This document shows positions 19,178 through 39,022 of a stretch of DNA of 64,000 nucleotides, piece by piece. Each line of letters begins with the position of its first letter. Position 1 is the stretch's first letter. The position numbers were made by a program, and so were the translations under genes. This stretch comes from Caulobacter mirabilis (GTDB lineage: Bacteria; Pseudomonadota; Alphaproteobacteria; Caulobacterales; Caulobacteraceae), in contig NZ_CP024201.1 of the NCBI RefSeq assembly GCF_002749615.1, positions 1,240,001 to 1,304,000 of the forward strand, read 5' to 3'. The notes beneath the pieces were generated by a model. The model was given only the letters and a program-made list of their open reading frames with translations, did no database searches and had not been told where the DNA came from.

Positions 19178-19378
19178 TGGGCGAATGTCTCCGATTAGGC
19201 GCGGTCGGGACCGTACGGCGCACAGGGCCGGACGGGCGCGCGGTGCGCAGGGCTATAGCCGCTCGCGGTGACAGGGAGAAGTCCGATTGTCGCACCCCGG
19301 ACAAACCCTCCGCCAAATCAACGGCCTATTCAGGGATCGCTCGTAGAACAGGGTTCCCTAAGGAGAGCCGCCGTCTCG

Positions 19379-21877
19379 ATGATCGCCGTCGCCAAGCCCC
19401 TTGCGCGCAAGCTGCTCGGCATCGTGGTCGTGCTCTCGATCGTGGTGACGGGGCTGACCAGCCTGGCCACCTTCTTCTTCGTCCAGAAGGCGTCGATCGC
19501 CCACCAGGTCGAGCACCTGAAGCTCTATGTCACCGAACGCGCCCAGACCGAGGACCGGCTGTTCTCGGAACTGGTCAAGGTCCACGCCGACGCCAACCGC
19601 GCGCTGATGCTGCGCTATGGCCTGCTGCGCGGGCGAGCGCTTGATGCGCGTTTCCAGGAGCTGTTCCCGCTGCAGCCTGACGGCACGCGCCGCAGCGCCC
19701 CCGATCTGTTCGACGGCCGGCTGCGCAGCGAGACCGACTACATCTACGGCATGGGATCGTTCATGGCGAACGGCGCCGCGGTCACCAACGACGAGAAGGC
19801 GCTGTACCTGGCGGTGCTGGAAGTGGCCTCCATGGTCGGCGAGGCGCAGCGCGCCCGCTACGACAACTTCTACATGTTCAGCACCGACAACCGGCTGATC
19901 ATGTACGGGCCCGAGCGCAAGGATCGGCTGCTCTACTATCGGCGGGACGCGCCGGCGGACTTCGGCTTCCAGAAGGAAGAAATGACCGAGATCACCCGGC
20001 CGACGGCGAACCCGGCGCGGGTGATGCGCTGCACCAAGCTGCGCAAGCTGCTGAGCGATCCCAGCGGCAAGGCCCTGACCACCGCCTGCATGACCCCGAT
20101 CGACATCGACGGCCGGCATGTCGGCGCCTGGGGCACGACGGTGACGCTCGACAGCTATCTGCTCGAAGCGGTCGGCCGATCGGCGGCGGGCAGCGAGAAC
20201 ATCATCGTCTCCGCCGACGGCGAGTTGATCGGCGCGCCCGGCATGGGCCGCGGCGGTGTGGTCAGCCCGGACGAACTAGAGGCTCAGGAGAAGAGTCGCG
20301 GCGTCGCCGACCTGGTGAAGGCGATCCGGGCCCGTGGGACGGAGTCGGGGGCGTTCGAGTATCGCGACCAGATGATCGCCTATGGTCACCTCAAGGAGCC
20401 GGACTGGTACTTCGTCATGAGTCTGCCGACGGCGGACGTCGTGCGCTCGGCGGCGCTGACGGCCTCCTGGGTGCTGCTGTTCGGCCTGCTCGGCATCGTC
20501 GCCCAGGCGGTGCTGCTCGTGCGGATCGTCAACCGCGAGGTGGTCGCTCCCCTGGAAATCCTGTCCAACACGCGCGGCGGCGCCGCCGGCTGCGCCGAGG
20601 GCGTCGAGCAGCGCGCCGACGAGATCGGCGCCCTGGCGCGGATGCTGCGCGGCCAGCGCCAGCGGAACGACGAGCTGCTTCGATCGCTGGAGGATCGGGT
20701 CGCCGCCCGCACCGCCGAGCTGCAGCGCGCCAACAAGGCCAAGTCGACCTTCCTGGCCAACATGTCTCACGAGCTGCGCACGCCGCTGAACGGGGTCATC
20801 GCCCTGACCGACCAGCTGGCCGAGACCGACGACCGGGACCGTCGGCGGGAGCTGGCGGGGCTGGTGTCCTCCTCCGGCCGCCTGCTGGAGCAGGTGCTCG
20901 GGGACATCCTCGACGTCTCCAAGATCGAGGCCGGCCAGTTCCGCCTGTCGCCGGCGCCGTTCGATCTGGTCGAGACGGTCTCGGGCATGGCCGACCTGCA
21001 TCGCGCCGCCGCCGAGGCCAAGGGGTTGGCCCTGACCTGGACGGTCGCGCCGGAGGCGCGCGGCGGCTGGTCGGGCGACAGCGGCCGGATCGCCCAGATC
21101 CTGTCCAACCTGCTCGGCAACGCGGTGAAGTTCACGGAGCGGGGCGGAGTGGCTCTGGACGTCGACCTCGACGGCGAGGGGCGACTCCGCTTCGTGGTGC
21201 GCGACACCGGGGTCGGGTTCGACGCCGAGGCCAGGGCCCGGCTGTTCCGGCGGTTCGAGCAGGCCGACGACTCCATCACCCGTCGGTTCGGCGGCACGGG
21301 GCTGGGCCTGTCGATCTGCGCCGCCCTGGCGCAGATGATGGGCGGCGAGATCGACGCGGCGGCTGAACCTGGCGAAGGGGCGGCCTTCACCGTGGTGCTG
21401 CCGCTGCTTCGGGCGGATCTGGCGGCGGCGGAGCGGGCCGACCCGGATCAGGACGCCGAAATGAGTCTCGAGGGGCTGAGGGTGCTGGTCGCCGAGGATC
21501 ACCCGACCAATCAGAAGGTGGTTCAGATCATTCTCGAGCCGTTCGGGGTCGAGCTGACCCTGGTCGGAAACGGGGAAGAGGCGGTGGCCGCCGCCGAGCA
21601 GCGGCGGTTCGACGCCGTCCTGATGGACATGCAGATGCCGGTCATGGACGGTCTGACCGCCACCCGGCGACTGCGCGCCCGCGAGGCTGCATTGGGCCGG
21701 TCGCCGGCGCTGATCGTCATGGTCACCGCCAACGCCATGGACGAGCACGTCGAGGCGGCGATCGCGGCCGGCGCCGACCTGCACATCGCCAAGCCCCTGC
21801 GCCCGGCCCAGCTGGTCGCGGCCCTGGCCATGGCGCCTCGTGAGCGCGGCGAGGAGAGCGAGCGGGCGGCGGGGTAG
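19379..21877 (+). CDS. hybrid sensor histidine kinase with receiver domain
   Basis: 832 aa from ATG 19379 with AAGGAG about 13 nt upstream; the frame is open back to 19268 but without protein-like content. TM1 is about residues 8-32, then a large periplasmic sensor (about 33-355), TM2 (about 359-384), a HAMP-like and coiled linker, HisKA with the phospho-acceptor His464 (NMSHELRTPLNG), HATPase_c with Asn581 (NLLGNAVKF) and GGTGLGLSIC, and a C-terminal receiver with phospho-acceptor Asp750 (VLMDMQMPVMDG) and Lys in IAKPLRP. The phosphate probably passes on through an Hpt protein. No response-regulator gene lies beside it; the signal is unknown. Confidence 0.92.
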   Translation: MIAVAKPLARKLLGIVVVLSIVVTGLTSLATFFFVQKASIAHQVEHLKLYVTERAQTEDRLFSELVKVHADANRALMLRYGLLRGRALDARFQELFPLQPDGTRRSAPDLFDGRLRSETDYIYGMGSFMANGAAVTNDEKALYLAVLEVASMVGEAQRARYDNFYMFSTDNRLIMYGPERKDRLLYYRRDAPADFGFQKEEMTEITRPTANPARVMRCTKLRKLLSDPSGKALTTACMTPIDIDGRHVGAWGTTVTLDSYLLEAVGRSAAGSENIIVSADGELIGAPGMGRGGVVSPDELEAQEKSRGVADLVKAIRARGTESGAFEYRDQMIAYGHLKEPDWYFVMSLPTADVVRSAALTASWVLLFGLLGIVAQAVLLVRIVNREVVAPLEILSNTRGGAAGCAEGVEQRADEIGALARMLRGQRQRNDELLRSLEDRVAARTAELQRANKAKSTFLANMSHELRTPLNGVIALTDQLAETDDRDRRRELAGLVSSSGRLLEQVLGDILDVSKIEAGQFRLSPAPFDLVETVSGMADLHRAAAEAKGLALTWTVAPEARGGWSGDSGRIAQILSNLLGNAVKFTERGGVALDVDLDGEGRLRFVVRDTGVGFDAEARARLFRRFEQADDSITRRFGGTGLGLSICAALAQMMGGEIDAAAEPGEGAAFTVVLPLLRADLAAAERADPDQDAEMSLEGLRVLVAEDHPTNQKVVQIILEPFGVELTLVGNGEEAVAAAEQRRFDAVLMDMQMPVMDGLTATRRLRAREAALGRSPALIVMVTANAMDEHVEAAIAAGADLHIAKPLRPAQLVAALAMAPRERGEESERAAG

Positions 21878-37718: not shown

Positions 37719-38216
37719 CTAGCCGTCTTCGTCTCCCGCGTCGCCGGCGGCGCCGCGGCGGCGCCGCAACAGCTTCAGCGGGCGCAGCAATTCATCCGCC
37801 GCGGCGCGGTCGGCGAAGATGAGGACGATGGCTTCGAGATGGATCCGCGTCCGGGTCGGCGACGGCGGGTCGTGGCCGGCCAGCAGTTCGCATAGTCCCG
37901 CGGCGGCTTCGCCGAGCTCGGGCCGTCCGAACAGCCCGGCCAGTCCGGCGATCCTTTCGGCCGCCATGTAGAGGTCCGGCGCGCTGGCGCCGATCCGACC
38001 GTAGCCGCGCAGGAAGTGCAGCTCGGCGTGAAGCACGCCGACCAGGCGGTCGATCTCGGCGACGGCCTGCTCGCGGCGCCCGGCCACGGCCCGGTTCGCG
38101 GCCGAGACGGCGGCGCGTGAGTCCAGGCCGCGACGCTCCCTCAGGAAACCGGCCAGGGTGTTGCCGGACGTGAGAAGGCGGGGGCCGTCCACGGCCTTGG
38201 ACGCGCGCGGCCTCAT
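37719..38216 (-). CDS. helical, Hpt-like protein in an operon with an atypical receiver
   Basis: 165 aa starting at ATG 38216, which overlaps the stop of the preceding receiver gene as ATGA. The part from about residue 45 to 150 is nearly all helical, with HAELHFLRGYGRIGASAPDL and MAAERIAGLAGLFGRPELGE followed by AAAGLCELL. This resembles histidine phosphotransfer (Hpt) four-helix bundles, with His candidates in VLHAELHFL, but I cannot prove a phospho-acceptor. The C-terminus is a run of Arg and Gly (RRRRGAAGDAGDEDG). Translational coupling says it works with the receiver-like protein. Confidence 0.6.
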   Translation of the reverse strand: MRPRASKAVDGPRLLTSGNTLAGFLRERRGLDSRAAVSAANRAVAGRREQAVAEIDRLVGVLHAELHFLRGYGRIGASAPDLYMAAERIAGLAGLFGRPELGEAAAGLCELLAGHDPPSPTRTRIHLEAIVLIFADRAAADELLRPLKLLRRRRGAAGDAGDEDG

Positions 38217-38749
38217 CGGATCGCCGCGGCGTGGTCGAGAGGATCGCCTGCTCGCCGGTCCGCTTCGCCCAGCGGCGGCCCGTCGTCCCGCATTCGCCGA
38301 TCCGGCCCGAAGTAGGCGTCCATGTCGACGAACTCGCGAGGCGTCTTGGCCAGCCAGAGGATGCGGTCGAAGACGGTCCGCGCCTGCAGGGGCTTGCTCA
38401 GCACGAAGGTCGCGCCGGCCTCCCGAGCGCGCTCGATCAGGGACCGGGGCGTGTAGCTGGACATCACCACCACCGGCGCCGTGCGGGAGGGGTGGTCGAC
38501 CGAGCGTCGGAGCGCCGAGATGCTGTCCAGCTCGTGCAGGTTGATGGCGGTCACGCCGACGAAGATCAGGTCGAAACCCTGTTCCGTCCAAAGCGGGATC
38601 TGGCTCGGATAGCGGGATCTCTGGACCCGTCTCAGGCCGAAGCCGCCGAGCATCGCGACGAGCATGTCCTGCTCGGTCGCGCTGGGCTCGCAAACGAGCG
38701 CGGACGCCTCGGAGAGGTCGATTCTGTTGTATTGGAGTACATTTGCCAC
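38213..38749 (-). CDS. receiver-like protein without the phospho-acceptor Asp
   Basis: 178 aa from a GTG start at 38749. Residues about 14-140 have the order of a CheY-like receiver: beta-1 ALVCEPSATEQDML, beta-3 FDLIFVGVTAIN, beta-4 VVVMSSYTP with the conserved Ser/Thr, beta-5 FVLSKPLQARTV with the conserved Lys. The acidic pair after beta-1 is reduced (CEPSATE) and the Asp at the end of beta-3 is replaced (Gly/Val in FVGV), so it cannot be phosphorylated in the usual way. It is coupled to the following Hpt-like gene. A pseudo-receiver role, binding partners by conformation, is inferred. Confidence 0.75.
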   Translation of the reverse strand: MANVLQYNRIDLSEASALVCEPSATEQDMLVAMLGGFGLRRVQRSRYPSQIPLWTEQGFDLIFVGVTAINLHELDSISALRRSVDHPSRTAPVVVMSSYTPRSLIERAREAGATFVLSKPLQARTVFDRILWLAKTPREFVDMDAYFGPDRRMRDDGPPLGEADRRAGDPLDHAAAIR

Positions 38750-38916: not shown

Positions 38917-39022
38917 CGATCATCCCGACGAAGGTCGGGATCCAGTTTCAGGCTCGGCGCCAGAAGATTTCACATCAAACTACAGCCCTACGAGCTGGAT
39001 CCCGGCCTTCGCCGGGACGACG
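38917..39022. repeat. long inverted repeat, CCCGGCGAAGGCCGGG family (copy C)
   Basis: Left arm 38917-38945, right arm 38994-39022, inverted with few mismatches. The left arm is slightly decayed (CCCGACGAAGGTCGGG). It shares TTTCAGGCTCGGCG with copy A and CTACGAGCTGGATCCCGGCC with copy B. Confidence 0.82.

Follow-up and report, generated by a model that had tools for sequence, protein, structure and literature searches.

A c-di-GMP-type receiver and a CheE-family partner in Caulobacter mirabilis, both without their phosphosites: evidence that CheE is probably a histidine-less, CheA-P1-like Hpt protein

Two overlapping genes in a stretch of 64,000 nucleotides of the Caulobacter mirabilis genome (the window) encode a receiver without its phospho-acceptor Asp and a helical partner without a phospho-His. 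By its motifs, the receiver is assigned to the Cle type (CheYIII/CleA-like), with a [YF]xGPDRR...RR motif and an alpha-4 Arg, and by its profile scores the partner is placed in the CheE family. The known output of Cle proteins in Caulobacter is the flagellar switch protein FliM, together with surface attachment. We read the pair, with a probability of about 0.6, as a copy of the Caulobacteraceae CleA-CheE (CheYIII-CheE) module that has diverged and stands alone; it would be switched by c-di-GMP, with the partner as a docking subunit. The new part is the identity of the partner: CheE is probably a CheA-P1-like Hpt fold minus its His, and it belongs to a widespread Cle-Hpt gene pair. No paper making this identification came up in the open-access literature, which was searched mostly as listings.

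Table 1. Features of the receiver-partner gene pair (window coordinates).
Feature	Position	Strand	Description
Window receiver, Cle-type	38213..38749	(-)	178 aa, GTG start; Gly65 at the phospho-Asp position, acidic pair E21-P22, S97, K119, alpha-4 Arg R109
Window partner, CheE-family	37719..38216	(-)	165 aa, ATG start; predicted CheA-P1-like Hpt fold without phospho-His
ATGA stop-start overlap	38213..38216	(-)	Receiver TGA and partner ATG share ATGA
Arg-rich region (ARR) of window receiver	38243..38314	(-)	Residues 146-169: YFGPDRR (146-152) ... DRRAGD (164-169)
Degenerate Hpt motif of window partner	37944..37958	(-)	ERIAG (residues 87-91) at the HxxKG/HxxRG position of His-bearing relatives

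In an alignment of 109 dereplicated pairs, the phospho-acceptor column of the window receiver holds Gly65 in place of the canonical Asp. The acidic pair has changed from DD to E21/P22, which amounts to the loss of half of it, and the Ser/Thr column (S97) and the beta-5 Lys (K119) are retained. The original prediction had described exactly this state, namely a receiver that lacks the beta-3 Asp, keeps the Ser/Thr and Lys, and has lost part of the acidic pocket. Pfam PF00072 recognises the receiver below its cut-off (E 2e-5; 25.1 bits vs 30.2). That earlier reading overlooked the C-terminal YFGPDRR...DRRAGD segment. The first repeat of this ARR is complete (YFGPDRR), and the flanking R138 and D169 are present; the second repeat is degenerate, being reduced to GEADRR, and is similarly reduced in L164, a che-cluster copy from Caulobacter vibrioides T5M6 (GTDGRR). 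The alpha-4 Arg is R109, and its column is invariant. Of 32 columns whose conservation among the other 108 receivers is 85% or higher, the window receiver keeps 25. Among these are Y146, GPDRR (148-152), P159, RR (165-166), R109 and K119; the first acidic Asp, replaced by Glu21, is one of the losses.

Judged from the alignment, the ARR of the window receiver is homologous to the c-di-GMP-binding motif of the Cle proteins, which, in the accessible text of PMC5677366, likewise consist of a single receiver with a C-terminal Arg-rich [YF]xGP[DE][RK]R region and an alpha-4 Arg. The window copy differs from them in its location outside a che cluster, in its identity of at most 40% to relatives, and in having lost the Asp, half of the acidic pair and the FliM-like C-tail. 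The same source (PMC5677366, Nesper 2017), as far as its text was available, reports that CleA of C. crescentus remains functional as D67A and is non-functional as RR153AA, with a partial contribution of R111. CleD E70A is functional as well, and E70 would occupy the Asp position. Both CleA and CleD bind c-di-GMP and FliM and are Asp-independent, and the authors conclude in that text that the conserved phospho-switch residues are dispensable in Cle proteins; according to this literature, the c-di-GMP motif would replace phosphorylation. The matching residues of L164 are D67, R111 and R153-R154, the same numbers as those of the CleA residues tested there. Of these, the window receiver has kept the arginines (R109, R151-R152) and lost the Asp (Gly65). 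L164 itself scores above the PF00072 cut-off, and its model matches CheY at a Z of about 19. Because the c-di-GMP motif is kept and the Asp is dispensable in CleA, the loss of the Asp in the window receiver is largely explained, and its oddity is accounted for by a known class. An ordinary kinase-driven receiver was rejected, since the Asp is absent but the c-di-GMP motif is present.

Among the 109 related receivers the Asp column reads D 77, A 11, N 11, E 8, G 1 and S 1; the pseudo-receiver state is therefore not what defines the family. The original prediction had named an Asp in orthologues as a reason to abandon it: 77 homologues do have one, and the searches gave no true orthologue of the window copy. 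On a quick tree, built from concatenated columns, with long branches and used only for the minimum number of Asp changes, at least seven changes between Asp and non-Asp are needed, in a direction that the method does not give. The first ARR motif ([YF]xGPDRR behind the receiver) is present in 104 of the 109.

Several variants occur within the family. The CleA-type receiver of the C. mirabilis che cluster (L113:5102-5713, C1:3865101-3865712; L061) has Glu in place of the phospho-Asp; this replacement is common to a clade of five che-cluster-type copies, and Ala takes the position in a second clade that includes che-cluster members. Five pairs (L033, L034, L108, L109 and L121) have the Asp and a CheE-like partner and have lost the c-di-GMP motif. 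In a further C. mirabilis protein (L064/L115, C1:4049586) an ARR receiver is fused to a helical-looking tail of ~100 aa; this tail does not match the CheE profile (4.2 bits for the whole L064 protein).

The two-gene arrangement is itself conserved. In 78 of the 80 named loci the receiver is followed immediately by a frame of 130-190 aa, and in 69 of the 80 the two genes overlap by −1 (ATGA or GTGA). The loci were the 80 best of 112 that had been confirmed, and their partners were sought by frame, not by similarity. The coordinates and the overlapping ATGA of the original prediction stand. The 109 pairs, dereplicated at 97% from 138, contain only receivers followed by a partner frame, which 15 of 74 in one set and 2 of 80 in the named loci lacked; within this set all 109 partners proved mutually homologous in a two-fold profile test. 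A chance pair of open reading frames is ruled out by the recurrent overlap arrangement together with this homology.

The fetched stretch contains cheD in 31 of the same best 80 of 112 loci, 30 of which have a partner frame, and homologous pairs located in chemotaxis clusters make the motility context proposed earlier a fair guess. The che cluster of C. mirabilis runs cheR, cheB, a CheY-like receiver and cheD (Pfam), followed by a CheU-like frame, a receiver and a partner. This is the order CheR, CheB, CheYII, CheD, CheU, CheYIII, CheE tabulated for Phenylobacterium zucineum in the available part of PMC2529317, so that the last two C. mirabilis genes correspond to CheYIII and CheE; two further adjacent CheYIII-CheE pairs are listed there for the P. 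zucineum genome. The partner gene of the window likewise lies directly 3' of a Cle-type receiver gene. The partners form one profile family that follows a CheYIII-type gene, che-cluster loci included, and their comparison with CheE (CC0441; PHZ_c3371 and others in P. zucineum) rests on gene position and family profile. Unlike CheE, the window copy is scattered and not in che1; the che1 copy of C. mirabilis (L113) lies elsewhere.

Two profiles that omit its own row give the window partner 61.4 and 67.3 bits, the latter with the His-bearing rows omitted as well; none of 2000 shuffles scores above 10.5. It keeps 10 of the 15 most conserved partner columns. Pfam has no match to it at E 1, and typical CheE proteins (L019, L007 and the partner of L164) are also without a Pfam Hpt match. 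Across other members, six of nine singly scanned partners match Pfam Hpt with an E of at most 0.1 (best 9.5e-6), and two of these six pass the cut-off; at the permissive limit of E 10 there are matches in 7 of 34 partners.

The Hpt ancestry emerges from the family profile. When made from the window partner and those of named loci, 53 in all and none with His at the key column, it finds the stand-alone Hpt protein L120 (HDLKG) in a search of the C. mirabilis genome at E 5.7e-13, the next match being at E 0.33; L120 scores 49-52 bits with profiles having no His in that column. In a pairwise BLASTP alignment (E 3e-4, 42 residues), Glu87 of the window partner stands opposite the His of HDLKG. The partner resembles CheA P1 and stand-alone Hpt proteins (L120; HmrX, CC_1220, in the accessible part of PMC11481889) in its helical-bundle fold and in the match around the His site. 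It differs from them in its ERIAG motif, with Glu87 for the phospho-His and Ala90 at the Lys position, and so cannot be a usual phosphotransferase. With both phosphosites gone, usual phosphotransfer cannot run through the window pair, in agreement with the original prediction.

The same relationship is seen across the class. At least 85 of 385 alphaproteobacterial genomes have a profile match at 1e-5, a lower bound because at most nine candidates were scored in most genomes. In 66 of 94 Hpt-like domains a His falls precisely on the column where the profile has none, 62 times as HxxKG/HxxRG. These shares lean towards CheE-like members because, of the 89 loci that supply the 94 distinct domains, 29 were given by the class scan and 60 were chosen from among its higher-ranking entries. 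This alignment of CheE with Hpt is strongly supported, since a profile without His could not itself have drawn His to that column. Sixty-two of the 94 domains directly follow an ARR receiver; these comprise 35 pairs with Asp and His, 23 with Asp and no His, three with neither site (in one of which the Asp column is gapped) and one with His and a gapped Asp column. For 30 others no receiver was found directly upstream, and 28 of these have the His. The motif AHEIRG occurs in three distant family members with the same gene order. Because pairs with both Asp and His exist in other Alphaproteobacteria, the phosphosites have probably decayed and the c-di-GMP motif has stayed. In the main set, His is found in only three of 109 partners, the column reading S22 L21 N17 A15 T14 G6 D6 E5 H3. 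Several Hpt-like family genes, some without His, also cluster within a few kb in L278 (G246:C23) and L276/L291 (G315:C3).

Modelled by AlphaFold from 53 rows, the window partner shows seven helices at a mean pLDDT of 87.3. CheA P1 and other Hpt proteins occupy the 14 top rows of a Foldseek search against the PDB; 12 are so titled, and two (8c5v_C and 4euk_B) we take to be such. The best E is 0.14 and none reaches 0.001; a designed four-helix bundle comes next, in row 15. In VIA, six CheA entries score Z 10.3-11.6, among them 2ld6 (Z 11.6) and CheA3 P1 bound to CheY6 (3kyj, Z 11.5; 3kyi, Z 11.3); the designed helical repeat 6ff6 ties at Z 11.6, and the tool warns that for helical bundles a Z below about 13 can be of little significance. 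Since designed bundles score too, the fold alone is weak evidence, and the sequence profiles carry the Hpt claim; the predicted model is consistent with an Hpt helical bundle. The earlier proposal of an Hpt-like helical partner, which a structure unlike any Hpt would have contradicted, thus agrees with both lines of evidence.

Many relatives of the window receiver have a further element at the C-terminus. SQDEID-like terminal peptides are found by a loose pattern in 63 of 109 receivers (e.g. L061, L164, L208 and L236), also outside Caulobacteraceae. In a shuffling test against the C. mirabilis FliM segment ILNQDEIDSLLG, 57 of 104 tails reach p 0.01, where one is expected, compared with two of 109 receiver cores used as a control; the five of 109 receivers without an ARR motif were excluded from the tail test, and 500 shuffles were used for tails and 200 for cores. 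CleA binds the N-terminal peptide of FliM and not its ID57WA mutant, according to the available text of PMC5677366, and the receiver tail may mimic FliM. In the AlphaFold model of L164 the tail includes a short helix at 186-193, in a low-confidence stretch (block mean pLDDT 57). The window receiver has no such tail by the same test (p 0.64).

The window copy is an extreme, orphan member of the family, diverged and standing alone. A receiver search of 61 genomes (C. mirabilis included) gave matches in 53, and among the matches listed none exceeded 38% identity except the window's own; the best in the named-loci search was 40% (best segment), and identities to relatives are about 24-36%. The best-scoring partner match in 75 genomes of the genus, C. 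mirabilis included and some of the other 74 incomplete, is 34% identical. No close orthologue of the pair was found in the genomes searched (75 of the genus for the partner, 61 for the receiver). The flanking genes match Pfam Beta-lactamase and Dioxygenase_C, and a promoter/terminator scan found no promoter on the strand of the pair. Upstream, at window 38922-38943, lies a palindromic element, CCCGACGAAGGTCGGG, which looks like a dispersed genomic repeat. The complete hybrid kinase noted previously at about 16 kb is indeed present (19268-21877; HisKA, HATPase_c and receiver by Pfam); no link between it and the pair was found.

In the proposed mechanism, c-di-GMP would bind the Arg-rich C-terminus of the receiver together with the alpha-4 Arg, as the Cle literature suggests, and would set the receiver surface without phosphorylation. 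The CheE-like partner would dock on the receiver as a P1 or Hpt domain does, solely as a binding partner, and may hold, stabilise or compete for it, whichever the direction of the effect. The complex would thereby answer c-di-GMP instead of a kinase.

Three other explanations were weighed against this mechanism. A pseudo-receiver and a pseudo-Hpt could form a pure decoy or adaptor that blocks or titrates genuine CheA/CheY, kinase or Hpt partners, with c-di-GMP being irrelevant. The absence of both phosphosites from the pair is in keeping with this, as are the P1/Hpt-like predicted fold of the partner and the CheY-like model of a homologous receiver; however, the c-di-GMP motif is among the best-kept parts of the receiver, and it is this motif, not the Asp, that CleA needs in the accessible text of PMC5677366, which makes the idea improbable. 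The pair may instead be a decaying duplicate, perhaps unexpressed and without present function, as loss of function is possible for a lone and fast-evolving pair. It has the longest end branch of the tree (2.01), without a supported sister, there is no close match in the 74 other genomes of the genus, some incomplete, and its GC3 is slightly lower than that of five nearby genes (0.87-0.88 vs 0.91-0.94). Yet both frames are intact with their overlap retained, and the 25 receiver and 10 partner columns have been kept despite a receiver identity of only ~24-36%; decay is, on balance, slightly less probable still.

We give the lowest weight to a CheE-type partner that acts, for example as a phosphatase or stabiliser, on phosphorylated CheY-like receivers and not on its neighbour. 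CheA P1, which it resembles, docks on CheY (3kyi and 2lp4, by their titles), homologues lie in che clusters, and 77 of 109 neighbouring receivers keep the Asp. Against this, the window receiver itself has no Asp, and the partner offers no obvious catalytic residue, since the old His site is variable and the commonest acid within -3 to +7 of it, D at +4, occurs in 51 of 109.

A wider evolutionary scheme is tentative, and we hold it to be rather less likely than its opposite. An alphaproteobacterial module of an Asp-receiver with a c-di-GMP motif and a P1-like Hpt protein may have been turned repeatedly into a phosphate-blind c-di-GMP switch. The Hpt His would have been lost first, giving the docking protein CheE, and then, in some receivers, the Asp; the FliM-like peptide of many members would let the receiver block itself or another CheY until c-di-GMP binds. 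The window pair, which has neither phosphosite nor tail, would have gone furthest along this path.

CheE is encoded in Caulobacter's main chemotaxis operon, and cheD, cheU and cheE are called "hardly described" in the available text of a 2023 paper (PMC10579534); the probable identity of CheE as a His-less, P1-like protein leads to a direct hypothesis for its function. The FliM-like receiver tail, in turn, suggests a simple link to CheY binding. The natural intermediates, with Asp and His, with Asp only, or with neither, provide a test set for the passage from phosphorelay to second-messenger control.
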